The translations under genes and the position numbers were made by a program. This document shows, piece by piece, positions 112-16,540 of a stretch of DNA of 64,000 nt; position 1 is the stretch's first letter, and every line of letters starts with the position of its first letter. This DNA comes from an uncultured delta proteobacterium (GTDB lineage: Bacteria > Desulfobacterota > Desulfovibrionia > Desulfovibrionales > Desulfovibrionaceae). The notes beneath the pieces are model-generated. The model had not been told where the DNA came from, ran no database searches, and saw only the letters and a program-made list of their open reading frames with translations. The stretch lies in NCBI GenBank assembly GCA_900079685.1, contig LT599018.1, positions 993,272 to 1,057,271 of the forward strand, given 5' to 3'.

Positions 112-1140
112 CTACAGAAGGGTTTTGAAATCCTTGCCCAGGAACTTGAGAACGTCGTCCATGACGCCCTTGCCGGGCTTGTCATAGAACTTTTCCCACA
201 TGGGCTTCACAGCGGCCTTGAAAGGAGCCAGTTCCGCTTCGGAATACTGGCGGACCTTGACGTTGAATTCCTTTTCCATGGCGGCGATGACCGCTTCGTT
301 GAGTTCCTTTTCCGCGTTACGGCCAAACACGACGTATTCTTTCATGCATTCGTCGAAAATCGCGCGCAGTTCGGGGGTAAGGGAATCGAGCCACTTCTTG
401 TTGATGGTGGGCAGGTGGAAGTGGGCGGTGGCGCGGATGATGGAGAGGTGGTCGATGACTTCCGCGAATTTGTCGGTCTTGTACAGGGTGGTGGCGGTCA
501 GCATGCCGTCAACCGTGCCCTGCTGCTGGGCGGTGTAGAGTTCGCCGTAGGCGACGACCGTGGGGCTGGCGCCGAGCGCGCTGATAAGGCCCATCTGCAT
601 GTCGGTCGACATGGTGCGGATTTTGAGGCCCTTAAGATCGTCGGGGGTGTTGATGGGGCCCTTCTTGGTGCCGATGGAGAGCCAGCCCTTCACGAAGCCG
701 CCGTATACGGCGACGCCGGCGTCTTTTTCCAGAACCTTGGCCCAGCCTTTGGCCAGGTCGGAGTCGAGTACCTTGTAAATGTCGTTCCAATCGGTGAAGA
801 GATAGGGGAATTCAAACACGCTGTACTGGGGGATGTTCGCCATGGCGGACAGGGTGTGGGTAGGCACCGGCACCATCTGCACCGTGCCCTGGCGCACGAT
901 TTCGCCAAGTTCGGTGTCGGACTGGGCCATGGATTTGCCCTTGTACACGGTCACTTTGATCTGGCCCTTGGATTTTTCTTCCAGGATTTTTTTCAGGTGG
1001 AAAAACGCCTTTTCCCCGGCGCCGCCGGCACCTTCGATGTGGGCGATCTTGAACTGATAGGTTTTGGCGGCCATGCCGGGAACGGCAAGGGCCAGTACCA
1101 GAACCATGCTGAACGCGGCGGTCAGAAACTGTTTACGCAT
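112..1140 (-). CDS. TRAP transporter substrate-binding protein, DctP family (third paralogue)
   Basis: A periplasmic solute receptor of 342 residues, the usual DctP length, that would deliver an organic acid to a DctQM permease. The N-terminus is a clear signal peptide with cleavage near GMA-A (about residue 24). The family core is present around residues 165-220: LKGLKIRTM, with the arginine that binds the ligand carboxylate in known DctP proteins, then YGELYTAQQQGTVDGM. AAGGAG sits before the ATG. It is the last gene of the minus-strand cluster and clearly more divergent than the two other DctP copies at 1667 and 3899, so it may bind a different ligand. There is no permease pair of its own next to it in the window. 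Family certain, ligand unknown. Confidence 0.92.
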   Translation of the reverse strand: MRKQFLTAAFSMVLVLALAVPGMAAKTYQFKIAHIEGAGGAGEKAFFHLKKILEEKSKGQIKVTVYKGKSMAQSDTELGEIVRQGTVQMVPVPTHTLSAMANIPQYSVFEFPYLFTDWNDIYKVLDSDLAKGWAKVLEKDAGVAVYGGFVKGWLSIGTKKGPINTPDDLKGLKIRTMSTDMQMGLISALGASPTVVAYGELYTAQQQGTVDGMLTATTLYKTDKFAEVIDHLSIIRATAHFHLPTINKKWLDSLTPELRAIFDECMKEYVVFGRNAEKELNEAVIAAMEKEFNVKVRQYSEAELAPFKAAVKPMWEKFYDKPGKGVMDDVLKFLGKDFKTLL

Positions 1141-1232
1141 ACGAATACTCCTTGGCTATATGGTCATCCGAGACACAGGCCGCGCGGCCCGCGCAACGCG
1201 CGCAAACCGGCGCGGCAATACAATCTTCCCGC

Positions 1233-1586
1233 TTACACCGCCCTGGGCGGCGGAGCCAGGGAACACAACATCACCAGCGGTTCATCGCCCGTATTCTTGG
1301 TGTAGTGCTCCTTGTTCGCGCCCATGAACACGCTCAGGTTTTTCTCCAGCGAAATTTCTCCCGTGTGGCCTTCCACGGTCATGATACCCGTTCCCTGAAT
1401 GATAAAATACGCCTCTTCATTGCTGTGGCGATGCGGCGGCAATTCCTCCCCGGGGTTCAGGTAGGCGATGGAGACCCCAAGGTATTCCGAACCGCTGATG
1501 GTGGGGTGCACCAGCCTTTTCACCAAACCGCCGACCCCGCGGTAGTCCACCCCTTCCGAAACATGACGCACGATTTTTGTTTCCAT
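1233..1586 (-). CDS. small cupin-domain protein
   Basis: A single-domain cupin of 117 residues. Motif 1 is visible as PHRHSNEEAYFIIQGTG, giving candidate metal ligands H52, H54 and E58, and motif 2 supplies H94 in GANKEHY. Single-domain cupins of this size act as isomerases, lyases or oxygen-independent sugar and acid-modifying enzymes, or as ligand sensors. It lies between two dctP genes in the catabolic cluster, so a role in converting the imported compound is an inference from position. A GGGAG motif lies about 12 bases before the ATG, a rather long spacing. Substrate not predictable. Confidence 0.85.
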   Translation of the reverse strand: METKIVRHVSEGVDYRGVGGLVKRLVHPTISGSEYLGVSIAYLNPGEELPPHRHSNEEAYFIIQGTGIMTVEGHTGEISLEKNLSVFMGANKEHYTKNTGDEPLVMLCSLAPPPRAV

Positions 1587-1628
1587 GCAAAGCCCGCTCT
1601 CCCGCGTACGGGGGTTTCAAAACCCGTA

Positions 1629-1655
1629 GCGGGGCCGGAAAAAATCCGGCCCCGC
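1629..1655 (-). terminator. stem-loop between dctP and the cupin gene
   Basis: Arms GCGGGGCCGGA and TCCGGCCCCGC (11 bp, perfect) around an AAAAA loop, directly after the dctP stop at 1667 on the minus strand. No long T run follows, so it may be an attenuator or an RNA-stability hairpin protecting the upstream dctP message. Confidence 0.55.
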
Positions 1656-1666
1656 GATCATAGAAG

Positions 1667-2677
1667 CTATTTGCCCAGTTGCTTTTTAATCCGGTCAATA
1701 ATTTCCTGCCCGGCTATGTCCGCTTTATCCTTCAGGATGTAAGCCGCGGCGTCAACAAACGCCTTCTTCTCTTCCGGCGTGTATTCGGTAACCTGCATGC
1801 CCCGCTTCTTCAGTTCGGCGAGGGCCGCCTTTTCGTACTCGTCTTCATACTGCCGTACGGCCGCGAGATACAGCGGGATGGATTCGTCAAACGCTTTTTT
1901 CTGCTCCGCCGTCAGCGCTTTGTACCACTTGGCGTTCACGAGCGGCACATGCAAAAGAGGCGCGGCGTTGACCGCTCCCATGTACTTCTGCACTTCATAG
2001 AAACGGTCGCTCACATACAGGCCGGTAGAGGTCATCATGCCGTCAACCGTGCCCTGCTGGCAGGCGGTGAACAGTTCTCCGTAGTTGACGATAACCGGGT
2101 TGCCGCCGAACGCGCGGATGATTTCCATCTGCAAGTCGGAGCTCATGGTGCGGATTTTCTGGCCTTTCAAATCCGCCGGGGTCTTAATGGGAGCCTTGTT
2201 GGTGGAAATAACCAGCCAGCCGAGGTTATAGCCGCCGAGCGCCTTCACGCCGACCTTCTTTTCCAAAACGGCGGAAAGTTCCTGTCCGATGGGACCGTCG
2301 ATGACCTTGTAGGTCTCCTCGTTGTTCGCGAGCAGGTAGGCGTAGTCAAACGCCTTGTATTCCTTGATGTTCCCGATGGCGGCCAGGGAGGAAGTCGGCG
2401 CGCTGGTCATCTGCACGATGTTCTGCTGAACCTTTTCCACGTCTTCGTTATTGGAATTGCTCAAGACCTTGTTGGGGAAAATGGAAACCTTGATCTTGCC
2501 GCCGCTTTTTTCTTCCACGGTCTTCTTGAAGAAACTCCAGCCCATGTGGATGGGGTCAACTTCCGTTGCAATGTGGGAAATCTTCAGTTCCACCACGTCC
2601 GCCGCCGCGGCGACGCCCGGCGTGGTGGCTACCATGAACGCCAGAGCCAGAAATGAGAAAAAAACTGTCCGTTTCAT
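1667..2677 (-). CDS. TRAP transporter substrate-binding protein, DctP family (second paralogue)
   Basis: A 336-residue periplasmic receptor. The ATG at 2677 was chosen because AAGGAGTTG precedes it and a typical signal peptide starts there (MKRTVFFSFLAL, cleavage near VAAAA-D). The DctP core IRTMSSDLQME and YGELFTACQQGTVDGM is present. Residue by residue it is very like the DctP at 3899: both have KVQQNIVQM, SAPTSSLAAIG, ACQQGTVDG and DKADIAG near the C-terminus. The two look like a tandem duplication separated by the zinc dehydrogenase gene. It probably shares the DctQM permease encoded upstream. Ligand unknown, most likely a small carboxylate. Confidence 0.93.
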   Translation of the reverse strand: MKRTVFFSFLALAFMVATTPGVAAAADVVELKISHIATEVDPIHMGWSFFKKTVEEKSGGKIKVSIFPNKVLSNSNNEDVEKVQQNIVQMTSAPTSSLAAIGNIKEYKAFDYAYLLANNEETYKVIDGPIGQELSAVLEKKVGVKALGGYNLGWLVISTNKAPIKTPADLKGQKIRTMSSDLQMEIIRAFGGNPVIVNYGELFTACQQGTVDGMMTSTGLYVSDRFYEVQKYMGAVNAAPLLHVPLVNAKWYKALTAEQKKAFDESIPLYLAAVRQYEDEYEKAALAELKKRGMQVTEYTPEEKKAFVDAAAYILKDKADIAGQEIIDRIKKQLGK

Positions 2678-2776
2678 CGACAACTCCTTGTATAAGCGCA
2701 CGGTCAAAGGCCTGTGCGGGTCAATGTTTTCCCACCATACGGGAAGACATATGCATGCGTTCCTTGTTCGCGGGGC

Positions 2777-3817
2777 TCAGCCCATTTCAACAATCGCCTT
2801 GGTGTCCAGGCCCCGGCCGGCTTTCAGCTCCTCGAACCCTTCCTGCAGGTTGCTGAACCGTATCCTTTTGGAGATATACTTCGCAACGTTGATCTCTTTC
2901 GACGCCATGGCGGAGGCCGTCCGTTCGAATTCCTGGAAGCTGTGCCCCTTGCTGCCCCGGAAAATCGTCTGCCGCAGCACGAGGTCCCGGTAATTTATGG
3001 CCTGGGCGTCCTGCGGCAGCCCCACGCCGATGAATTTCTTGTAAAATTCCGTCTTGAGGGCGGCAATGCCCGCGTTGATGGCCGAGGCATAGCCCACGCA
3101 ATCGAACACGACGTCATACCCGTCGCCGGATATGCCGCACAGCTGTTCCAGCAGGTCGGGGGCTCCGGCGGGCACAACATGGTCGGCCACGCCGTACGCG
3201 CTGATAATGGCGGCTTTTTCCGTGTTCATCTCGGTGACGGTCACTTCCGAAACGCCGTATCCCCGGACCCATTCCGCCACGGTCAGTCCGATGATGCCGC
3301 CGCCCAGCACAAGCACCTTGTCGCCCTTTTGGATGTCCGCGAGGGACACCGCATGCAGGCCCACGGTAAAAGGCTCGATCAGGGCGGCCTCGTCCAGGCC
3401 GATGGAATCGGGCAGTTTATAGATGCTGCGGGGGAACCAGGTGGTGTATTCGCTGTACGCGCCCGGATGCGTCAGGTCGCCGCCCTTCCAGGTCTTCACG
3501 GTCCGGTTGTCGCAGGACGCGAAATCACCGCGCAGGCAGAATTCGCAATGCCCGCACGGTTCCTGAAACACGTTCTGGGTGTACCCGGCAACGCGGTCGC
3601 CGCGCCGGAAAAGCCCGCTGTCGCCCGGCTCCTCTATGATGCCGGCGTATTCATGCCCGAGAATAAGGCCCTTGTAGTGCGCCCCTTCCCGCCAGGAACT
3701 CATGTCCGTACCGCACACGCCGGCGTGGGTCACCCGGATGACGGGATTCCCCCTGACGCGGAGCTCCCCTTCGCGGAAAGCAAATTTTTCTGTATCGTCA
3801 ACCACGGCATATTTCAT
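2777..3817 (-). CDS. zinc-dependent medium-chain alcohol dehydrogenase
   Basis: A 346-residue MDR-family NAD(P) dehydrogenase, related by motif to butanediol, threonine and polyol dehydrogenases. Catalytic zinc ligands are visible as C35 (VCGTD), H55 and E56 (GHEY). The structural zinc loop has four cysteines in CGHCEFCLRGDFASC, and the Rossmann motif is LGGGIIGL. The reading frame is open up to a GTG at 3889, but that start would place the hairpin after dctP inside the gene; the ATG at 3817 fits the family N-terminus better, although its ribosome site is weak. Its place between two dctP genes suggests it oxidises the imported alcohol or hydroxyacid, feeding the 2-oxoacid dehydrogenase complex. 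Confidence 0.9.
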   Translation of the reverse strand: MKYAVVDDTEKFAFREGELRVRGNPVIRVTHAGVCGTDMSSWREGAHYKGLILGHEYAGIIEEPGDSGLFRRGDRVAGYTQNVFQEPCGHCEFCLRGDFASCDNRTVKTWKGGDLTHPGAYSEYTTWFPRSIYKLPDSIGLDEAALIEPFTVGLHAVSLADIQKGDKVLVLGGGIIGLTVAEWVRGYGVSEVTVTEMNTEKAAIISAYGVADHVVPAGAPDLLEQLCGISGDGYDVVFDCVGYASAINAGIAALKTEFYKKFIGVGLPQDAQAINYRDLVLRQTIFRGSKGHSFQEFERTASAMASKEINVAKYISKRIRFSNLQEGFEELKAGRGLDTKAIVEMG

Positions 3818-3855
3818 GATGGCACCGGTTTGTTGCGCTGTTGCGTCAAAAGCGA

Positions 3856-3888
3856 TGAACCGGAGGAGAGCACCTCTCCCCCGGTTCA
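3856..3888 (-). terminator. stem-loop between dctP and the zinc dehydrogenase gene
   Basis: Fifteen-base arms with one mismatch around a GTG loop (minus strand), starting 11 bases after the dctP stop at 3899. It is followed by GCTTTT after a few bases. Likely a partial terminator or 3' stability hairpin for the binding-protein message. Confidence 0.55.
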
Positions 3889-3898
3889 CGCGACGAAT

Positions 3899-4912
3899 CT
3901 ATTGTTTGCCGAGCATCGCCTTTACCTTGGCGACTATTTCCTTTCCGGCGATATCCGCTTTGTCCCTGCTGATATACGCGGCGGCGTCGACAAAGACTTG
4001 CCTTTCTTCCGGGGTGTACTCTTTAACTTCCATACCGAACTCTTTCAGTTTTTTAAGAGCGGCGGCCTGATAGTCTTCTTCATACTGACGCACCGCTTCA
4101 AGATACAGCGGAACGGTGTCGTCAAAGGCTTTCTTCAGGTCCGCGGGTAAGCTGTTGTACCACTTGGCGTTGACCATGGGGATGTGAAAGATGGGCATGG
4201 CGTTGGTGCAGCCCATGTACTTCTGCACTTCGTAAAACCGGTCGCTCACGTACAGGGTGGAGGAGGTCATTATGCCGTCAACAGTGCCCTGCTGGCAAGC
4301 GGTGAACAGCTCGCCGTAGTTGACGATGGTCGGGTTGGCGCCGAACGCGCGGATGGCTTCCATCATCAGGTCGGCGTTCATGGTGCGGATTTTCAGGCCT
4401 TTCAGGCTGGCCGGGCTTTCAATCGGGCCCTTGTTGGTGGAAATGACGCACCAGCCGAGGTTGAACCCGCCGAAGGTCTTGATGCCCGTTTTCTTTTCCA
4501 GCATCGCGGACAGTTCCTGGCCGATTTCGCTGTCGATAACCTTGTACAGTTCTTGGTTGTTGGCAAAAAGAAACGCGTAGTCAAACACTTTGTATTCGTT
4601 GATCTTGCCGATGGCGGCCAGGGAAGAGGTGGGCGCGGAAGACATCTGCACGATGTTCTGCTGCACCTTTTCCGCGTTTTCGTTATCCGAGTTGCTCAGC
4701 TGTTTGTTGGGGAAAATCGTGACTTTGATCCGGCCGTTGCTTTTTTCTTCAATCGTTCTCTTGAAGAAATCATAGCCGAGGTGGATGGGATCCATCGTCG
4801 TCGTCAGGTGCGTCATCCGCAACTCATAGACTTTTTCCGCCCCATGGCCGGAGGCCGGGAAGGACAGCAGGAGCAGCGCAAGGGCGAAACATGCAACAGC
4901 CTTATTTCTCAT
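3899..4912 (-). CDS. TRAP transporter substrate-binding protein, DctP family (permease-linked)
   Basis: A 337-residue receptor directly downstream of the DctM gene (58-base gap), so it is probably the cognate binding protein of this TRAP system. The signal peptide ends near SGHG-A (about residue 24). The DctP core LKGLKIRTMNADLMME and YGELFTACQQGTVDGI is intact, and the arginine of IRTM is expected to contact the ligand carboxylate. It is closely similar to the copy at 1667 and less so to the one at 112. Known DctP proteins bind C3-C6 dicarboxylates, keto acids, hydroxyacids, sugar acids or sulfonates; the sequence alone does not decide which. Confidence 0.94.
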   Translation of the reverse strand: MRNKAVACFALALLLLSFPASGHGAEKVYELRMTHLTTTMDPIHLGYDFFKRTIEEKSNGRIKVTIFPNKQLSNSDNENAEKVQQNIVQMSSAPTSSLAAIGKINEYKVFDYAFLFANNQELYKVIDSEIGQELSAMLEKKTGIKTFGGFNLGWCVISTNKGPIESPASLKGLKIRTMNADLMMEAIRAFGANPTIVNYGELFTACQQGTVDGIMTSSTLYVSDRFYEVQKYMGCTNAMPIFHIPMVNAKWYNSLPADLKKAFDDTVPLYLEAVRQYEEDYQAAALKKLKEFGMEVKEYTPEERQVFVDAAAYISRDKADIAGKEIVAKVKAMLGKQ

Positions 4913-8126: not shown

Positions 8127-9509
8127 CTACATGCAGTGAACAGCCTTGCCGTACGCGGCCATGAAGGCTTCGGGCAGGGCTTCGCTCACCGTCGGGTGCG
8201 GATGGATGGAGTGGATGATTTCTTCCGCCGTCGCTTCCAGCGTCATGGCCACGGCGAGTTCCGCGATCATGTCCGTGGTGTGCTTGCCGTACAGGTGCAC
8301 GCCGAGAATCTCGCCAAGTTCCGCATCGACGATGACTTTCGCCAGGCCGTCCGTATCCCCTTCCACCAGGGACTTGCCGTTGGCCGCCATGGGAAACTTG
8401 CCGATCTTCACCTGCTTGCCCTGCTCCTTGGCCTGCTTTTCCGTCAGGCCGATGCAGGCGATTTCCGGGTCCAGGTAGATGCAGGAAGGAATCTGGGAGT
8501 AGTCCATCCGTGCGTGCTTGCCGCAAATGGCGTCAACGGCGACGATCCCTTCGTGGGATGCGGTATGGGCCAGCATCACCTTGCCGTTCACGTCGCCGAT
8601 GGCGTAAATGTTGGGTATGTTCGTGCGTAAGGTCGCGTCCGTCTTGATGGCGGCCTTTTCGAATTCAATGCCGATTTCCTTGGCCTTGAGGCCATCGGTG
8701 TTCGCAACGCGCCCCACGGCCATCAGTACGTAATCGGCCTTGACGCTTTCCTGTTTGCCGCCCTTTTCGAAAAGCACCGCGTTGTCCTTGACCGTGTGCA
8801 CCTTCGCGCCCATGTGGAAGGCCACGCCGTCTTTTTCCAGGCGCTTCTTGGCCATGCCGGAGACTTCCTCGTCCACCATGGGCAGGATATTCTCCATCAG
8901 TTCGATCACCGTGACCTTGCTGCCGAGCCGGTTGAAAAGATAGGCGAATTCCACGCCGATAACCCCGCCGCCGATGATGGCGACGGACGCGGGAACCGTG
9001 TCAATATCCAGCGCTTCCCGGCTGGTCAGGATGCGGTTTTTCCCTTCCTGCTTGATGAAGGACGGCATCAGCACGTTCGAACCGGTGGCGATGATGCAAG
9101 AGTCGAACGTGACCTTTTTCCCGGCGATATCCACGGTATGCGCGTCCACGAACGCGGCGCTCCCTTCCATGGCCGTGACCTTGTTGCCGCGCAGAAGGCC
9201 CTTGACCCCGCCGACCAGCGTCTGCACCACGCCTTTTTTGCGTTTCTGCAGCTTTTCCATGGAAACGGAAACGGCAGCCGGGTTGACGCCTTCGATGCCG
9301 AAAGCGGCGGCTTCCTTGATTTCATGGAGCGCATTGGCTGTTTTTATGAGTGTTTTGGTGGGAATGCAGCCCTCGTTCAGGCATACGCCGCCAAAGTTGG
9401 CGCGTTCGGCAATGCAGACCTTTTTGCCTTCCTTGGCCGCCTTGATCGCCGCCACGTACCCGCCGGGACCGCCGCCGATCACAAGTATATCAAATTCATA
9501 TGCCGCCAT
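8127..9509 (-). CDS. lpdA: dihydrolipoyl dehydrogenase (E3)
   Basis: A 460-residue FAD flavoprotein that reoxidises the lipoyl groups of the E2 subunit with NAD+. It shows the FAD-binding GGGPGGYVAAI, the redox-active disulfide in GGVCLNEGCIPTK, the NAD-binding IGGGVIGVEFA and the C-terminal HPHPTVSEALPEA with the active-site His-Glu of the partner subunit. The ATG at 9509 follows AGGAGAC. It is the fourth gene of the E1alpha-E1beta-E2-E3 set, separated from E2 by 113 bases that contain a hairpin. There is no N-terminal lipoyl domain, unlike some acetoin-operon E3 proteins. Confidence 0.96.
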   Translation of the reverse strand: MAAYEFDILVIGGGPGGYVAAIKAAKEGKKVCIAERANFGGVCLNEGCIPTKTLIKTANALHEIKEAAAFGIEGVNPAAVSVSMEKLQKRKKGVVQTLVGGVKGLLRGNKVTAMEGSAAFVDAHTVDIAGKKVTFDSCIIATGSNVLMPSFIKQEGKNRILTSREALDIDTVPASVAIIGGGVIGVEFAYLFNRLGSKVTVIELMENILPMVDEEVSGMAKKRLEKDGVAFHMGAKVHTVKDNAVLFEKGGKQESVKADYVLMAVGRVANTDGLKAKEIGIEFEKAAIKTDATLRTNIPNIYAIGDVNGKVMLAHTASHEGIVAVDAICGKHARMDYSQIPSCIYLDPEIACIGLTEKQAKEQGKQVKIGKFPMAANGKSLVEGDTDGLAKVIVDAELGEILGVHLYGKHTTDMIAELAVAMTLEATAEEIIHSIHPHPTVSEALPEAFMAAYGKAVHCM

Positions 9510-9583
9510 ACGGTTGTCTCCTGTTTTGCGCCGCGGCATCCGGACAAGGCAAACCCTTCTCCGGACGCGCCCGGCGGGGGAAT

Positions 9584-9610
9584 GATCCCGCCCCGTGACA
9601 AGGCGGGATC
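9584..9610 (-). other. intra-operon stem-loop between E2 and E3 genes
   Basis: Perfect 9-bp arms GATCCCGCC and GGCGGGATC around a 9-base loop, 12 bases after the E2 stop. No T tract follows on the minus strand. It could tune the relative amounts of E2 and E3 by RNA processing or partial termination. Confidence 0.4.
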
Positions 9611-9622
9611 ACCGGCCGCACC

Positions 9623-10963
9623 TTACATCAGAATCCTGATGGGTGTTTCAAGCAGTTCCTTGAAGTACTTAACGAAATTGGCGGCGAGCAGGCCGTCGAT
9701 GACCCTGTGGTCCACGCTGAGCTGGATGTTCATCATGGGCCGGATCACAACCGTGTCGTTCCCCGCCGCGTCCGTTTCCACCACGGGGATCTTCTTCACC
9801 GCGCTGACGGCCAGAATCGCGGATTCCGGCGGGTTCACGATGGCCGTGAAGTTCTCGATGCCGAAGGGGCCCAAATTGGAAATGGTAAAGGTGCCGCCGC
9901 TATACTCGGAGGGGTCCAACCGCCCGGCTTTCGCCCGTTCCACGAGGTCGCGGGTTTCCACGGCGACGGCGGACAGGGACTTTTCCTGAACGTTCTTCAC
10001 CACGGGCACAATAAGCCCGTTATCCCCGGCAACGGCAATCCCGACGTTGGTGCTCCGGTAGCAGACGACCTCGTCGCCGACAAGGGAGACGTTGACCTCG
10101 GGGTACTGTTGCAGGGTCCGGCTCGCGGCCAGAACCAGCAGGTCGGAAACCGCGACCTTGCCTTCGCCGGACGCGTTAAGCTCCGCGCGGAAGGCGGTCA
10201 GCTTGCTCGTATCCACGCTGGCGGTGAAGTAGACATGGGGCGCGTCGCTCATACTCTGGGCCAGGCGCTGGCCGATGACCTTGCGTACGCCCTTGTACGG
10301 CGTGACGGAACGGATCTTCTTCTCTTCGGTCCCGGCAGCAGCGGATGCGCCAGCGGCAGACAAGGGCGCGCCCGCGACGTCGGCCTTCATGATCTTGCCG
10401 CCGACGCCCGAGCCCTGCACGGAGGCGAGGTCAACGCCATCCCGCGCCGCAACCTTGCGGGCCAAGGGGGAGGCCTTGATATCCTTCGCGGTGATGCCGC
10501 CGCGGAACCCGGTGCCCTGCACGGAGCCGAGGGAGGCGGGATCCAGGCCTTCGTCCTTGATGAGTTTTTTGGCTTTGGGCGTCAATTTCAAATCGCCCAC
10601 GTTGACAGCGGCGGCGGCGGCAACAGGGGGCGCCGCGGCAGCGGGAGCGGCGCTTGCCGCAACCGGAGCCGCCGGGGCGGAACCGCCGCCCGCATGGGCC
10701 GCAAGGGCCGCGTCAGCGTCTTCGCCCTGCCGGCCGATGACGGCGATGGGCGTGAACACGTCGGCGAACGCGCCCTCTTCCAGCATGGTTTTCAGGAGCA
10801 CGCCGTCCATGGTCGCTTCCACGGGCATGGTGGTTTTGTCGGTATTGATTTCAAACAGCACGTCGCCTTTGGCAACCGCGTCACCGACGCTTTTGCACCA
10901 TTTGACGAGCTGCCCTTCATCCATATTGAAGCCCAGTTTGGGCATGATAACAACTTCAGCCAT
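9623..10963 (-). CDS. 2-oxoacid/acetoin dehydrogenase E2, lipoyl acyltransferase with two E3-binding domains
   Basis: A 446-residue acyltransferase core subunit. Residues 2-78 form one lipoyl domain with the modified lysine at K43 (INTDKTTMP). An Ala/Pro-rich linker covers about 84-120. Two consecutive peripheral-subunit-binding modules follow, at about 126-162 (LTPKAKKLIKDEG..VQGTGFRGGITAKDI) and 164-196 (ASPLARKVAARDG..VQGSGVGGKIMKADV). The catalytic domain occupies about 215-446 with the active-site DHRVIDG. E2 chains usually carry one binding module, so the tandem pair is unusual. AAGGAG precedes the ATG. It transfers the acyl group from E1 to CoA; whether the substrate is acetoin, pyruvate or another 2-oxo compound is open. 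Confidence 0.94.
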   Translation of the reverse strand: MAEVVIMPKLGFNMDEGQLVKWCKSVGDAVAKGDVLFEINTDKTTMPVEATMDGVLLKTMLEEGAFADVFTPIAVIGRQGEDADAALAAHAGGGSAPAAPVAASAAPAAAAPPVAAAAAVNVGDLKLTPKAKKLIKDEGLDPASLGSVQGTGFRGGITAKDIKASPLARKVAARDGVDLASVQGSGVGGKIMKADVAGAPLSAAGASAAAGTEEKKIRSVTPYKGVRKVIGQRLAQSMSDAPHVYFTASVDTSKLTAFRAELNASGEGKVAVSDLLVLAASRTLQQYPEVNVSLVGDEVVCYRSTNVGIAVAGDNGLIVPVVKNVQEKSLSAVAVETRDLVERAKAGRLDPSEYSGGTFTISNLGPFGIENFTAIVNPPESAILAVSAVKKIPVVETDAAGNDTVVIRPMMNIQLSVDHRVIDGLLAANFVKYFKELLETPIRILM

Positions 10964-10984
10964 CGCGATTCTCCTTTGTCGGCC

Positions 10985-11971
10985 CTAGTTGCCGGGCTTG
11001 ACCATTTCTTTGATCTTCGCCGCGATGCTCTTTTCGTCGGGGATAAGCGGAAATTCCAGGGCCGGGCTGAACGGCAGCGGCACATCGGCCGTGCCCAGGC
11101 GCTCGACGGGCGCTTCCAGATCGTAAAAGACTTCGGGCATGATGCGCAGGAAGATTTCACCGCTGACGCCGAAGCTGATGTGTCCTTCGTCCACGATGAG
11201 GAGCTTGCCGGTCTTTTTCACGGATTTGATGATGGTGTCCGTATCAAGGGGCACCACGGTCCGCAGGTCGATAAGTTCCGCGCTGATGCCTTCGGCCGCC
11301 AGTTTCTTCACGGCCTTTTCGGCCTTGACCGTCATCATGGAGTTGGCGACGACCGTGATGTCGGCCCCTTCGGTAACCATGCGGGCCTTGCCGAAGGGGA
11401 TGCAGACGTCGCCTTCGGGCACGTCGTCAAACTTGGTGGTGTAGAGCATCTTGTGCTCGAAGAAAATGACCGGGTTGTTGTCGCGGATGGCGGTTTTCAG
11501 AAGGCCTTTCGCTTCGCCGGCGGTGGAAGGCAGGACCACTTTCAGGCCCGGGCAGTGGGCGGCCCAGGCGTGCAGGCTCTGGGAATGCTGCGCCGCCGAG
11601 GAGCGGCCGCCGCCGAGCGGCATGCGGATGACCATGGGCACGTTGCACTGCCCGCCGGACATGTAGGTGATTTTCGCGGCCTGGTTGCAGATCTGGTCCA
11701 TGGCGACCATGAGGAAGTCCGCAAACATCAGTTCCACAACGGGGCGGCAGCCGGTGAGGGCCGCGCCCACGCCAAGGCCCACGATGCCCGCCTCGGAAAT
11801 GGGCGAATCCTTGCAGCGCCATTCGCCGTATTTGTCCATAAGGCCGACGGTGCATTTAAAGTTGCCGCCGATGACGCCCACATCCTCGCCGATCACGAAG
11901 ACGTTTTTATCCCTTGCCATTTCCTCGTCCAGAGCTTCCTGGACAGCTTCTCTATACATCAGCTCACGCAT
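10985..11971 (-). CDS. 2-oxoacid/acetoin dehydrogenase E1 beta subunit
   Basis: A 328-residue transketolase-like beta chain that, with E1 alpha, decarboxylates or cleaves the substrate on thiamine diphosphate and passes the acyl group to E2. Family landmarks are the N-terminal MREAVQEAL-type segment and VIGEDVG, then EAGIVGLGVGAALTGCRPVVELMF, and LIDLRTVVPLD in the C-terminal domain. GAGGAG precedes the ATG. It is 24 bases downstream of E1 alpha and 21 upstream of E2. Separate alpha and beta chains are typical of acetoin, branched-chain and Gram-positive-type pyruvate complexes. Confidence 0.95.
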   Translation of the reverse strand: MRELMYREAVQEALDEEMARDKNVFVIGEDVGVIGGNFKCTVGLMDKYGEWRCKDSPISEAGIVGLGVGAALTGCRPVVELMFADFLMVAMDQICNQAAKITYMSGGQCNVPMVIRMPLGGGRSSAAQHSQSLHAWAAHCPGLKVVLPSTAGEAKGLLKTAIRDNNPVIFFEHKMLYTTKFDDVPEGDVCIPFGKARMVTEGADITVVANSMMTVKAEKAVKKLAAEGISAELIDLRTVVPLDTDTIIKSVKKTGKLLIVDEGHISFGVSGEIFLRIMPEVFYDLEAPVERLGTADVPLPFSPALEFPLIPDEKSIAAKIKEMVKPGN

Positions 11972-11995: not shown

Positions 11996-12952
11996 CTAGG
12001 CGACAAACACGTCGGTGTACGCTTCGGCGATGTCCGGGTACGGGCTGTCTTCCGCGAACTTGCAGGCAGCGGCGATCTCCACGTCAACCTTGGCGCGGAT
12101 ATCGTCAATTTCCTTTTGCGACAGCAGCTTCCTGGCTTCAAGCTTGCCGATGGGCTCCTTGGAGCGCCAGTCGGCGACTTCCTTGTCCGCCCGGTACACG
12201 CCGGGGTCGCCCACATGGTGGCCCTGCCAGCGGTAGGTGAGGCATTCGATGAGGGTCGGCCCCTGGCCCTTGCGGGCGCGGTCCACGGCTTTTTGCGTTT
12301 CCTCGTAGACGGTGAAGACGTCGTTGCCGTCGATGGTCACGCCGGGGATGCCGTACCCGACCGCCCGCTTGGACAATTGGTGTTCTTTCGTCACGCGGCG
12401 GATATCCACGGAAATGCCGTACAGATTGTTTTCGATAATGAACACGATGGGCAGGTCCCAGGCGGCGGCCATGTTCAGGCTTTCATGGAAGGTGCCTTCG
12501 TTGGAGGCGGAATCGCCGAAGAAAGAAATCGTGACCTTGCCGTTCTGCTGCATCTTGGAGGAATACGCCGCGCCGAGCGCGATGGGGATGCCGCCGCCCA
12601 CGATGCCGTTGGCGCCGAGGATGCCCTTATCCATGGCCATGATGTGCATGGAACCGCCCTTGCCCTTGGAATACCCGGCGGCCTTGCCGAGGATCTCGGC
12701 CATCATGCGGCCCAGGTCCGCGCCGCGCGCGACCAGGTGGCCGTGGCCCCGGTGGGTGCTGCCGATGTAGTCGGAGTCGTTCAGCGCGCCGCAGGCTCCC
12801 GCGGCGATGGCTTCCTCACCGAGATACAGGTGGGCAAGCCCGGGCATCAGGCCGCGCTTATAAAACTCGAACACCTCTTCCTCGAAACGGCGGGCGCGGT
12901 ACATAACCGTATAGAACTGCCCGGCCATTTTTTTCATGTCATCTTTCTTCAT
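11996..12952 (-). CDS. 2-oxoacid/acetoin dehydrogenase E1 alpha subunit
   Basis: A 318-residue thiamine-diphosphate-binding alpha chain. The TPP motif runs from GDSASNEG to ENNLYGIS (about residues 155-185), and RGHGHLVARGAD and KGKGGSMHI are family landmarks. The ATG at 12952 has AAGGAG upstream; an in-frame start at 12979 is less likely. It is the first gene of the cluster and lies about 105 bases downstream of the predicted sigma-54 start site. The arrangement E1alpha-E1beta-E2-E3 next to an AcoR-like activator resembles acetoin dehydrogenase operons, but acetoin specificity cannot be shown from the sequence. Confidence 0.95.
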   Translation of the reverse strand: MKKDDMKKMAGQFYTVMYRARRFEEEVFEFYKRGLMPGLAHLYLGEEAIAAGACGALNDSDYIGSTHRGHGHLVARGADLGRMMAEILGKAAGYSKGKGGSMHIMAMDKGILGANGIVGGGIPIALGAAYSSKMQQNGKVTISFFGDSASNEGTFHESLNMAAAWDLPIVFIIENNLYGISVDIRRVTKEHQLSKRAVGYGIPGVTIDGNDVFTVYEETQKAVDRARKGQGPTLIECLTYRWQGHHVGDPGVYRADKEVADWRSKEPIGKLEARKLLSQKEIDDIRAKVDVEIAAACKFAEDSPYPDIAEAYTDVFVA

Positions 12953-13065
12953 TGTACCTGTCTCCTTACCGCGTATCACGGTATGTCGGCGGTTTTCCGG
13001 CCGCCGGTTCCGGTAAAGACGCTATGCGCGGGCCATACTCGCGGCACATTCCATGCAAACGGTAA

Positions 13066-13084
13066 TAGCAATGGACATGCCAGA
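13066..13084 (-). promoter_or_regulatory. sigma-54 (-24/-12) promoter of the catabolic cluster
   Basis: On the minus strand the sequence reads CTGGCATGTCCATTGCTA. It has TGGC at -24 and TTGC at -12 with exactly ten bases between the invariant GG and GC, against the consensus TGGCAC-N5-TTGC. Expected transcription start is near 13056, about 104 bases before the E1 alpha ATG. A sigma-54 activator gene lies next door. Confidence 0.8.
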
Positions 13085-13150
13085 AATCATCCGGCGTGTG
13101 CCTCGGTAACATAACCACTTGCGCAGCAAAGGTTTTCTGTGATTATTTTT

Positions 13151-13298
13151 TGTGCCACAATGAGCCTTTTGAGCCACATGTTCAAATTGACACATTTGGC
13201 ACTTGTGCCATAAACACAAAAACGTGCCATATGTCACACTGGCACACAATGTCACAAAAAATGTGTCCCGAATGATTTTCCACAACGGTATACGGCAC
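13151..13298. promoter_or_regulatory. GTGCCA/TGGCAC half-site array, candidate activator binding region
   Basis: GTGCCA occurs at 13152, 13205 and 13224; TGGCAC at 13197 and 13240; CGGCAC at 13293. Two pairs form dyads: TGGCAC-TT-GTGCCA (13197-13210) and GTGCCA-N10-TGGCAC (13224-13245). The array sits roughly 70-215 bases upstream of the -24 element, the usual distance for enhancer sites. None of these copies has a GC at the correct distance to be a -12 element. The rest of 12953-13430 is AT-rich promoter DNA without a gene. Confidence 0.65.
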
Positions 13299-13392
13299 AA
13301 TAAATAACAATTTTATTATATTGAAATAGTTTGTAAAAATATAACTACGCAACATGATACACGCTTTCCCCATCGAATATTGCGTTATAAAA

Positions 13393-13420
13393 TGTGCCAT
13401 TGCCGGGATTATACGGCACA
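13393..13420. promoter_or_regulatory. candidate autoregulatory operator in front of the activator gene
   Basis: TGTGCC and GGCACA form an inverted repeat with a 16-base spacer, ending 10 bases before the activator ATG and partly covering its leader. TACGGCACA here repeats the same nine bases at 13291. It carries the same half-site as the upstream array, so the activator may control its own synthesis. Confidence 0.45.
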
Positions 13421-13430
13421 GGAGCCGGAG

Positions 13431-15452
13431 ATGATCTACCAGGACATGCGGGCAAAAATCCAATTGGCCCGCCAGCAATTCCAAAGAGGCGAACCCATCG
13501 CGGAAGGCTCCATCCGCCAGGAGATACTTGAGTCCTGGGAACGCTCGCGCTCGTACGGGCTGGAGTTCGACAAGGCGGACAAGCGGCTCATTTCCAGGGA
13601 AGCACTGAAGGAGCGCATCCGGGAACGGCGGGAGCTGTACGACATAGCCGTCCCGGTGATGGAAAAACTCTACGATTACACGGCGGGGTCCGGCTGCTAC
13701 TGCACGTTGTCGGATGAGGAAGGATATCTTCTCAAAGCCATGGGCGACACGGAAATTATTGAAATAGCCCAGCAGAACAAATTCATGGAAGGCTGCAACC
13801 GGAACGAGCGGCGCCTCGGCACCAACGGCATCGGCACGCCGCTTGTGACGCACAAACCCATCCAGGTATTTGCCGAGGAACACTATTACGAACTGCACCA
13901 TCAGTGGGTCTGTTCCGGCGCGCCCATATTCGACCCCTCGGGCAGGCCGGTCGGCGTTTTCTGCCTGACGGGCCTGTACGACAAGGTTTCATACCACACG
14001 CTGGGGCTTGCCGCGGCCGCGGCGGATTCCATCACGCAGCAGCTCGCCATGAAGCAGGCGTACAACGCCATCGAACGCATCCAGCAGCGGATGAAGATCA
14101 TCGTGGAGACCGTTCCGTCCGGGATTCTGCTCTGCAACCAGGACCTGGACGTCATCCAGAGCAACACGCGGGCGTCCGCCCTGCTCATGCTGCCGGAGAT
14201 GCAGATCATCGGCAGGAAGCTGCACGAGCTCCTGGACCGGGAACCGTTCGATATCGCCAAAATCCACGAGACCCTTGACGACAAGGCCATCACCATCGAC
14301 CGGGACGGGCGGAACCTGCACTTCGTGTTCACCCTGAACGCGACCACGACCAACGACTACGTCATCACTTTCGTCAAAACCGAGTCGTTCCATAAAAAAA
14401 TTCACCGGATCATCGGATCCGAGGCGTACTTTACCTTCGACGATATCGTGGGGCAGGTCCCGGCCATGCAAAACGCCGTGTCCCTGGCCCGCATCGCGGC
14501 CAACAACAACGCGACCGTGCTGCTCACCGGGGAATCCGGCACGGGCAAAGAGCTGTTCGCCCAGTCCATCCACAACGGCGGCCGCCGCAAGAACGGCCCC
14601 TTTGTGGCGCTGAACTGCGCCGCTCTCCCCAAAAGCCTCATCGAGAGCGAGCTTTTCGGCTACGAGAGCGGCTCGTTTACCGGCGCGCGGCGGGAGGGAA
14701 GCGCGGGAAAATTCGAACTTGCCAACGGCGGCACCATTTTCCTGGATGAAATCGGCGACATGCCGCTGGACGTGCAGGCCAGCCTTTTGCGCGTGCTGCA
14801 AAACCGGGAGGTCAGCCGCCTGGGAAGTTCCAAGGCCACCAAAATCGACGTGCGCATCATCGCCGCCTCCAACCGCAACCTCCCGGCGGCCATTGAGGAA
14901 AACGCCTTCCGCGCGGACCTGTATTACAGGCTGAACGTGTTCAACATCCATATCCCTCCGCTGCGCGAGCGGGTCGCGGATATCCGGGTTCTGGCGGACT
15001 ACTTCCTGCGCAAATACGCGGATCTTTCCTCGCGCCGCGTGGAGGGGTTCACCCAGGCGGCTTACCGCGCCTTGGAGGAACACCCGTGGCAAGGCAACAT
15101 CAGGGAGCTGGAAAACGTCATCGAGCGGGCCGTCTACGTGACACGCTCCCCGCGTATCGACCTGGAGAGCCTGCCGCTCCAGCGGTCCGCCGCGCCGAAA
15201 TTGTCGGAGGCTCCCGTGACGGCCTTCACGCCGGGCGGCAACGGCATTTCCGGGGAAATAGACCCCATGCTCGCGGCGGCGTTCCGGGGGAGCGGCGCGA
15301 CGAAAGCCGTCAAACGCGCCCTGGCCGCGACACACGGCAATATGCGCAAGGCCGCCGGCCTGCTCGGCATAAGCCGCCGCACCCTGTACCGGAAAATGGC
15401 GGACATGGGCATCGCGCCAGCCGATTTACGCCGCCCCAAAGACACTATGTGA
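13431..15452 (+). CDS. sigma-54-dependent transcriptional activator, AcoR-like
   Basis: A 673-residue enhancer-binding protein. The N-terminal sensory half has a GAF-like region (about 60-200) and a PAS-like region (about 215-325, GILLCNQDLDVIQSNTRAS). The AAA+ domain spans about 335-570, with Walker A GESGTGKE near 366, GSFTGA near 412 in place of the usual GAFTGA, and Walker B IFLDEIGDM. A Fis-type helix-turn-helix (GNMRKAAGLLGISRRTLYRK) lies at the C-terminus. AGGAG precedes the ATG at 13431. It is divergent from the dehydrogenase cluster and very probably its activator. The N-terminal layout matches acetoin-type regulators that sense a ligand directly, without a phosphorylated receiver domain. 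Confidence 0.93.
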   Translation: MIYQDMRAKIQLARQQFQRGEPIAEGSIRQEILESWERSRSYGLEFDKADKRLISREALKERIRERRELYDIAVPVMEKLYDYTAGSGCYCTLSDEEGYLLKAMGDTEIIEIAQQNKFMEGCNRNERRLGTNGIGTPLVTHKPIQVFAEEHYYELHHQWVCSGAPIFDPSGRPVGVFCLTGLYDKVSYHTLGLAAAAADSITQQLAMKQAYNAIERIQQRMKIIVETVPSGILLCNQDLDVIQSNTRASALLMLPEMQIIGRKLHELLDREPFDIAKIHETLDDKAITIDRDGRNLHFVFTLNATTTNDYVITFVKTESFHKKIHRIIGSEAYFTFDDIVGQVPAMQNAVSLARIAANNNATVLLTGESGTGKELFAQSIHNGGRRKNGPFVALNCAALPKSLIESELFGYESGSFTGARREGSAGKFELANGGTIFLDEIGDMPLDVQASLLRVLQNREVSRLGSSKATKIDVRIIAASNRNLPAAIEENAFRADLYYRLNVFNIHIPPLRERVADIRVLADYFLRKYADLSSRRVEGFTQAAYRALEEHPWQGNIRELENVIERAVYVTRSPRIDLESLPLQRSAAPKLSEAPVTAFTPGGNGISGEIDPMLAAAFRGSGATKAVKRALAATHGNMRKAAGLLGISRRTLYRKMADMGIAPADLRRPKDTM

Positions 15453-15559: not shown

Positions 15560-16399
15560 CTATTCAATGATGATTTCAAGCACCGTCGGGGAAACCCAGA
15601 CCACGTTGTGCTTCTTGGGCGCGCGCAGCATATCGAGCACCAGGCGGGGGCCGCCCGCCTGCTTGCCCGCGCGCGCGCTCTTAATCATGTTGTTCGAGGG
15701 CACCGTGGGCGCGCGCATGTTGTCCCACGTTCCCACAAGGTCGATCACGTACCGGTCCGGAGAAGGCAGGGCAAACGTCTTGTAGGAGAAAGGCGCGTCC
15801 GCCTCGATGCGCAGCGCCATCCCGCCGCCCTTGAAATGCAGGCTGATATTGACCAGGGTCAGGGATTTCTTCATTTGGGAGCCGCCGGGATTAGCCTGCG
15901 TTTCCGGCTTGGACGTCACCGGCGTCATGGCGGTAGCCGTTTCCGGCTTCGGAGCCTCGGGTTTCGGGACTTCGGGCTTAGGCGCCACGGGTTTGGGCGC
16001 TTCCGGCTTCGGCGCTTCGGGCTTCGGCTCTTCCGGTTTGGGTGTTTCCGGCTTCGGCGCTACGGGTTTGGGTGTTTCCGGCTTGGGGGCTTCGGGTTTG
16101 GGCGCTTCCGGCTTCGGAGCCTCCGGCTTGGGAGCTTCCGGTTTCGGGGCTTCCGGTTTGGGAGCCTCCGGTTTCGGCGTTTCGGGCTTCGCGGGCGCCG
16201 GTTGCGGGGCGCTCTGCGGGGCCGTCGCCACGGTGGCCGGTCCGGCACCCTGGCCGGAGATGCCGCTGCCGCCTTCCGGCGCGGCGGCCTGTTGCGCGGG
16301 AACGGGAGCCGTACCGGGTCCCGACGTCTGATTCACAAAAATCAGCGCCATCGCGCCCAGAATGATACCAAGAAAAACAACGAAAAAACCTTTATTCAT
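15560..16399 (-). CDS. AMIN-domain envelope protein with a proline-rich KPEAP repeat
   Basis: A 279-residue envelope protein. A transmembrane anchor or signal segment is at about 3-22, then an Ala/Pro region, then about 15 copies of a five-residue repeat of the type PKPEA (roughly residues 70-155), and a C-terminal AMIN-like domain (about 185-279, ending VVWVSPTVLEIIIE). AMIN domains localise proteins to the envelope through glycan or secretin contacts, and the stiff Pro/charged repeat probably spans the periplasm. The ATG at 16399 has GGGAG upstream; a longer frame to 16483 lacks a credible start. Exact role unknown. Confidence 0.8.
   Translation of the reverse strand: MNKGFFVVFLGIILGAMALIFVNQTSGPGTAPVPAQQAAAPEGGSGISGQGAGPATVATAPQSAPQPAPAKPETPKPEAPKPEAPKPEAPKPEAPKPEAPKPEAPKPETPKPVAPKPETPKPEEPKPEAPKPEAPKPVAPKPEVPKPEAPKPETATAMTPVTSKPETQANPGGSQMKKSLTLVNISLHFKGGGMALRIEADAPFSYKTFALPSPDRYVIDLVGTWDNMRAPTVPSNNMIKSARAGKQAGGPRLVLDMLRAPKKHNVVWVSPTVLEIIIE
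15932..16193. repeat. 15-bp tandem repeat encoding PKPEA units
   Basis: About 15 degenerate copies of a 15-base unit of the form GGCTTCGGNGCYTCC lie inside the AMIN-domain gene. Unit variants encode PEAPK, PETPK, PVAPK and PEEPK. Copy number is expected to vary between strains. Confidence 0.8.
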
Positions 16400-16540
16400 G
16401 CCACAGTACTCCCAAGCCAAGCCACGAAGGCGCGGGCGGCATTCACGCCGCCGTTGAGCGCCGTAGTGAGCGTGTCTTGACAAACCCGGTTTTTGCGGGG
16501 CTCGCCATTAGTCTGGACCGGCAGAGAAGCCGGGCGCCGT

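Follow-up and report, generated by a model that had tools for sequence, protein, structure and literature searches.

A TGNCAC half-site array as the putative upstream activating sequence of an AcoR-like activator in the Desulfovibrionaceae

A TGNCAC array between an E1alpha operon and its divergent activator

The stretch of DNA analysed here (the window; 64,000 nucleotides from an uncultured delta proteobacterium of the Desulfovibrionaceae) contains an intergenic region at 12953–13430, between a minus-strand gene row and a plus-strand gene for an AcoR-like activator, in which an array of TGNCAC half-sites lies upstream of a sigma-54 core promoter (Table 1). Judging from sequence comparisons, this array is very probably the upstream activating sequence of the divergent activator, driving E1alpha from the sigma-54 promoter, with possible autoregulation of the activator gene. 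Related activators of distant bacteria are accompanied by similar arrays, and the operator seems to be of a new type in an otherwise familiar kind of bacterial switch. TGNCAC arrays would be a readable operator whose targets could be called from sequence. The activator clade has members among Desulfovibrio relatives, the Clostridia, and MAGs carrying the label Planctomycetota.

The course of regulation that we infer is as follows. Activator subunits would bind TGNCAC half-sites about one helical turn (8–11 bp) apart, an inducer would fill the GAF domain, and the activator would assemble into an active oligomer. The oligomer would loop to sigma-54 RNA polymerase at 13067–13082, and transcription of E1alpha-E1beta-E2-E3 would start. 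The half-sites at 13394 and 13414 may in addition let the activator affect its own gene.

Table 1 Features of the putative regulatory region and its flanking genes (positions in the window)
Feature	Position	Strand	Remarks
E1beta, E2, E3	8127..11971	minus	Pfam and NCBIfam
E1alpha, first gene of the target operon	11996..12952	minus	Pfam E1_dh, 5.8e-85
Sigma-54 core promoter, TGGCATGTCCATTGCT	13082-13067	minus	GG-N10-GC; -12 GC at 13069/13068
Half-site GTGCCA (inside GTGCCAC)	13152..13157	plus	
TGACAC-N3-TGGCAC-N2-GTGCCA	13188..13210	n/a	starts 13188, 13197, 13205
GTGCCA-N2-TGTCAC-N2-TGGCAC-N4-TGTCAC	13224..13255	n/a	starts 13224, 13232, 13240, 13250
CGGCAC, weaker half-site, followed by A	13293..13298	minus	
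GTGCCA (13394) and CGGCAC (13414), possible autoregulatory site	13394..13419		37 and 17 bp before the activator ATG
AcoR-like activator	13431..15452	plus	Pfam: GAF, PAS, sigma-54 AAA+, Fis-type HTH

The original prediction described eight copies of GTGCCA, TGGCAC or CGGCAC within 270 bases, including two perfect dyads, and a recurrence of the half-site just before the activator ATG. All eight are present, in 268 bases (13152–13419), with GTGCCA/TGGCAC at 13152, 13197, 13205, 13224, 13240, and 13394 and CGGCAC at 13293 and 13414, the last position of each series being the pair that precedes the ATG at 13431. The dyads are exact (TGGCAC-TT-GTGCCA at 13197–13210 and GTGCCA-N10-TGGCAC at 13224–13245). 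The eight copies found in 13120–13430 compare with a mean of 0.49 in dinucleotide shuffles, none of which (0 of 2000) reached eight. Across the whole window GTGCCA is rarer than expected (17 occurrences against a shuffle mean of 38), and six of those 17 lie in the array. The identity of the half-site needed revision: the array stands as described, but relatives give TGNCAC as the half-site, the ortholog from the same genus (L012) having mostly TGACAC and GTGTCA. TGACAC at 13188 and TGTCAC at 13232 and 13250, overlooked in the first reading, are extra half-sites, and 12953–13430 contains nine TGNCAC half-sites in all.

Within the 4.0-Mb genome, the pattern GTGCCAN2-4TGNCAC matches once, in the window array. 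TGGCACN2-4GTGNCA occurs at three places, namely the window array and two places without an array, one inside an open reading frame (C1:1613938) and the other where an open reading frame begins (C3:132968). The two dyad patterns give 4 and 1 matches in the genome, fewer than their reversed controls (8 and 5), so tight dyads show no genome-wide enrichment; the unusual feature of the dyads is their local density. This regulon search was confined to tight dyads in which one half is GTGCCA or TGGCAC. The regulon is likely local, with a paralog of the activator in the same genome (L002) as a possible second site.

Recurrence and spacing of the array in related loci

Relatives were drawn from a genome-contig scan (20 loci) and from whole-genome searches. 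The loci are best matches only, and the genomes matching at the thresholds used were 2 of 99, 10 of 348, 59 of 247, 1 of 250, and 24 of 341. Duplicate loci were removed (L010, identical to L012; L033 and L043, to L014; L042, to L013; L044 and L093, to L027; L046 and L062, to L019; L049 and L092, to L020; L050, to L017).

Absence of the half-sites from orthologous regions had been named beforehand as an observation that would speak against the array. We looked for them there and found them present, weakly so in L017 and L064. The 11 loci in which the activator is divergent from E1alpha, the window among them, hold 52 TGNCAC half-sites against 7.16 expected. These comprise 24 TGGCAC, 16 TGTCAC, and 12 TGACAC, two of the TGGCAC being the -24 elements of L012 and L020. 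The window's share of the 52 was counted to 13391, with the start taken as the ATG at 13392, and amounts to eight; counting to 13430 gives nine. The alignment and spacing figures below and the sigma-54 scan of the 11 loci likewise take the window to 13391. In eight of the 11 loci the observed count was reached by 0–3 of 1000 shuffles. The weaker arrays are those of L034, L017, and L064, for which 21, 131, and 342 shuffles of 1000 were as high, and the array of L064 is at chance level.

L012 belongs to the same genus as the window, and its activator is 76% identical in the N-terminal part. Its promoter is kept, as a perfect TGGCAC-ACCGG-TTGC-T, while its array is shorter and its half-sites are spelled otherwise, one GTGCCA overlapping the activator start codon; we regard it as a case of enhancer turnover. 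L013 has half-sites flanking its sigma-54 element on both sides. The contig that carries it is labelled Planctomycetaceae, its E1alpha is 85% identical to that of the window, and its origin would be lateral transfer or a binning error. In L020, from a Lachnospiraceae MAG, six half-sites form a single array, and another TGGCAC precedes the -24 element by 12 bp.

Fifty sites from 10 loci were aligned (without the -24 elements of L012 and L020, without L064, and with the L012 start-codon site). TGNCAC is followed by A in 36 of the 50, and the remaining flanks carry little information. Orientation is only weakly informative because TGNCA is its own reverse complement. When all orientations are taken together, 18 of 40 consecutive gaps measure 8–11 bp, and among pairs of sites no more than 60 bp apart the distances follow a period of about 9–9.5 bp. 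At a period of 9.5 bp the mean cosine is 0.366 against 0.038 (sd 0.078; P 0.0005, uncorrected for the periods tried), with P values, likewise uncorrected, of 0.017 at 10 bp, 0.24 at 10.5 bp, and 0.76 at 11 bp. Since the 10.5-bp period is not significant and orientations are mixed, the dimer unit is undefined.

An unlikely alternative, which overlaps our preferred explanation, is that the array mainly represses or autoregulates the activator gene and that activation of E1alpha is secondary. The window has its two sites close before the activator ATG, and the activator start is within ~65 bp of the closest sites in L034, L013, and L012, as such a role would have it; yet the main array of the window, L014, L019, L020, and L027 lies ~40–240 bp upstream of the E1alpha sigma-54 element (in the window, ~70–170 bp upstream of this core promoter), a usual place for an enhancer. 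The autoregulatory site proposed at the outset is plausible as an addition to the activating role, with a relaxed-motif half-site at most 65 bp from the activator start in 7 of the 11 loci (window, L012, L013, L034, L063, L064, L027), though as a raw count this is a weak indication.

Half-sites follow the activator clade

By its domains (PF00158, PF02954, PF01590, and PAS) the activator is a one-component enhancer-binding protein, with GSFTGA at residue 414 and SRRTLYRK at residues 648–655, and its GAF domain and location beside E1alpha-E1beta-E2-E3 genes are those of AcoR. The in-frame ATG at 13392 is an alternative start, by eye without a ribosome site. The first-listed nearest plasmid homologs of the activator (36–38% identical) were unhelpful; the two examined adjoin sugar- or inositol-type genes.

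Eighty activators were read and classed by the residue before T in xxTLYRK, giving 18 of the R/K class, 58 others, and four without a readable helix (L085, L112, and L119, which are cut, and L023). A cluster meant two or more TGNCAC inside 40 bp, and the 400 bp before each activator were examined. Such clusters precede 14 of the 18 R/K-class activators and none of the 58 others, among which L103 and L121 have two half-sites each, unclustered. In a tree of 77 activators built with the HTH left out, all 18 fall on one side of a branch (99 aLRT, quick method). The R class therefore lies in one clade, and 14 of 18 against 0 of 58 is a single split rather than a set of independent events. In a motif-blind count of clustered 6-mers, the commonest words of the R class (17 loci) are GGCACA and GTGCCA, in six loci each, followed by GTGACA, GTCACA, GTGTCA, and GACACA in four loci; in this count the other helix classes show none of the R-class words.

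Exceptions within the R class are L064, L024, with one half-site, and L016 and L018, with none upstream of the activator. The activators of L016 and L018 are not located at E1alpha; their genomes have E1alpha genes elsewhere (L045, L047), where GTGACA and TGACAC precede a sigma-54 element. The motif holds within the clade down to 33–35% identity in the N-terminal part.

TGNCAC half-sites also stand beside clade activators with no E1alpha in the fetched stretch (L002, L015, L035, L094). E1alpha clusters with sigma-54 elements and activators of other helix types, namely L022 (RST), L023 (RNT), and L127 and L128 (RAT), have no TGNCAC cluster; L022 has one isolated TGTCAC and L023 no half-sites. 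This suggests that the half-site goes with the activator rather than with E1alpha. The same distribution argues against the half-sites binding another, co-controlling regulator while the divergent activator binds elsewhere, an arrangement for which the array is long enough to hold two proteins and L013 offers sites on both sides of the promoter, and which we consider improbable. The split between classes, together with the array itself and the recurrence of the promoter described below, favours the initially proposed combination of a core promoter with enhancer sites predicted to bind the neighbouring activator.

The paralog L002 (C1:2931593-2936605) is 63% identical to the activator and divergent from a cut glycyl-radical enzyme gene. 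The locus has its own sigma-54 element, TGGCACGCCGATTGCT, and GTGACA/TGTCAC half-sites. Among glycyl-radical enzyme models PFL2-3 scored best, then HpsG and CutC, all below cut-off for the cut protein.

The sigma-54 promoter before E1alpha

The predicted promoter, TGGCAT-N5-TTGC with GG-N10-GC spacing before E1alpha, is found on the minus strand as TGGCATGTCCATTGCT, near the -24/-12 consensus TGGCAC-N5-TTGC. A hand count from its -12 GC places the expected +1 at ~13056. It is the one minus-strand element in the intergenic region that scores at least 9 in a sigma-54 scan. By itself it is not significant, an equally good match towards E1alpha in the region having P 0.074, and it is convincing because it recurs in other loci. 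Elements scoring at least 9 point towards E1alpha in 10 of the 11 divergent loci against 0.40 expected, and elements scoring at least 8 do so in all 11 against 1.53 expected.

A sigma-70 promoter for the activator was sought and rejected, as the plus strand had no match and the two on the minus strand compare with a mean of 1.5 in shuffles. In 3 of the 11 loci a sigma-54 element scoring 9 points towards the activator. In the E1alpha leader of the window, a plus-strand sigma-54-like element, CGGCACATTCCATGCA (13042–13057), points to the activator and sits inside a block well conserved with L012 (CGGCACACTCCATGCA).

It had been suggested that the likeness of the half-site to the -24 core may matter for the evolution of the site. 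This likeness is not conserved: the GG that sigma-54 needs is present in only 24 of the 52 half-sites, and two of these 24 are -24 elements themselves. That sigma-54 holoenzyme, and not the activator, uses the TGGCAC copies, either as additional -24-like contacts or as decoys, is hardly credible, for although TGGCAC is the -24 consensus and L020 has a copy 12 bp from that of its promoter, 28 of the 52 half-sites, including all six of L027, are TGTCAC or TGACAC without the GG, and no second minus-strand element of the window region attains the promoter's score class of 9.

Target operon and candidate inducer

By Pfam the gene row reads E1alpha, E1beta, E2, E3, a glyoxalase-type protein, an SDR, DctQ, and DctM. 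The first four encode a dehydrogenase complex of the pyruvate/acetoin type. The order E1alpha-E1beta-E2-E3 is common to L013, L014, L019, L020, and L027, and E1alpha is 51–89% identical in the ten other divergent loci (partial in L012 and L017). Distant homologs of the SDR and of a zinc dehydrogenase, 28–36% identical, also occur in L013 and L027.

Curated protein models lean towards pyruvate dehydrogenase for the complex. E1beta scores above the cut-off of the subfamily model NF006667 (pyruvate dehydrogenase E1beta; 390.5 vs 321), and the best model for E1alpha, below its cut-off, is TIGR03182 (pyruvate dehydrogenase E1alpha). Six mammalian-type pyruvate dehydrogenase E1alpha chains, together with a single 2-oxo acid dehydrogenase, make up the solved relatives up to 1e-40. 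E2 fails the acetoin E2 model NF011457 (83 vs 307). From gene content, with an E1 row beside an AcoR-like activator and the SDR and zinc-dehydrogenase homologs, our guess is that the inducer would be acetoin or a product related to it; the model results for E1beta and E2 speak against acetoin. An acidic substrate would fit with TRAP transporters.

Two further features of the neighbourhood may be recorded. At 112–4912 one DctQM pair is followed by what, by eye, are three genes for TRAP substrate-binding proteins (DctP) and a zinc-type dehydrogenase, which is unusual for one transporter. Beside the activator, a minus-strand open reading frame at 15560–16483 has a long run of PKPEAPKPE repeats and perhaps encodes an envelope protein.

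Comparison with known systems

Bacillus AcoR activates the aco genes from a sigma-54 promoter and has, in B. thuringiensis, a GAF domain (PMC4428206). Its site, GACAAAACGAGACAGATGTCTCATTTTGTC (quoted from Peng et al. 2020 in PMC12648084; for truncation work see PMC10018347), contains GACA twice (at 0 and 10) and TGTC twice (at 16 and 26). As in the window, that operator is made of several half-sites: a 2-bp gap separates the halves of a central inverted pair, GAGACA-GA-TGTCTC, and further TGTC/GACA copies lie 10 bp outside it. The same gap recurs in GTGCCA-TA-TGTCAC of the window and GTGCCA-CT-TGGCAC of L034. The Bacillus half-site is TGTCTC and the operator has four half-sites, whereas here the half-site is TGNCAC and there are up to nine. 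On sequence grounds the array layout is AcoR-like, and the half-site is one base off (TGTCTC to TGTCAC). In 12953–13430 the Bacillus half-site GAGACA/TGTCTC was found once, as TGTCTC at 12959 in the E1alpha leader. The AcoR-type proteins of Enterococcus (L127 and L128, RAT helix) are 27–28% identical to the window activator; in their aco-type clusters TGTCTC/GAGACA occurs three times in L127 and once in L128 (raw counts), and the L127 cluster is annotated with 2,3-butanediol dehydrogenase.

In Clostridium the AcoR regulon consists of AcoR with acoABCL under sigma-54, and the groups described there, not specifically AcoR, mostly have multiple UAS sites, mostly 100–250 bp upstream (PMC6615313). 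The same source calls the Clostridium AcoR motif distinct; it may or may not be TGNCAC. The sigma-54 regulome of Desulfovibrio vulgaris Hildenborough, an organism related to that of the window, includes divergent one-component activators with half-site UAS, three of its five motif groups being TGT-ACA with 9, 11 or 12 bp, and the main text makes no mention of acetoin or AcoR (PMC4641369). Word searches of the open PMC library, one of them covering the best 20 of 14,088 papers, gave no TGNCAC operator for AcoR among the matches listed. The half-sites of NorR, NtrC, and CelR differ from TGNCAC, and the window has more sites than these multi-site enhancers. In those systems formation of the active hexamer is aided by two or three sites (cited in PMC8899819).

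A candidate specificity residue

A more speculative and rather doubtful idea concerns the recognition helix. R650 (xRTLYRK) may read the A of TGNCAC and alanine at this position (SRATLYRK) may read TGTCTC, in which case a single substitution would have divided the family, in several phyla, between two types of operator, and the arrays of the clade would be open-ended series of near-palindromic half-sites that keep a 9–10-bp pitch while number and orientation drift. If true, this would supply a predicted specificity residue for the AcoR-like activator clade. The rule is based on Bacillus, with the operator taken from the literature and the helix unseen, and on the raw counts from the two Enterococcus loci. 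A general code from A-type helix to TGTCTC was rejected, since the further RAT activators L097 and L100 have none and L117 has one isolated TGACTC. In LuxO, the helix-3 serine S423 is among the critical residues (PMC11407668); from the printed residue order we take S423 to occupy the same column as the putative specificity residue of the activator.
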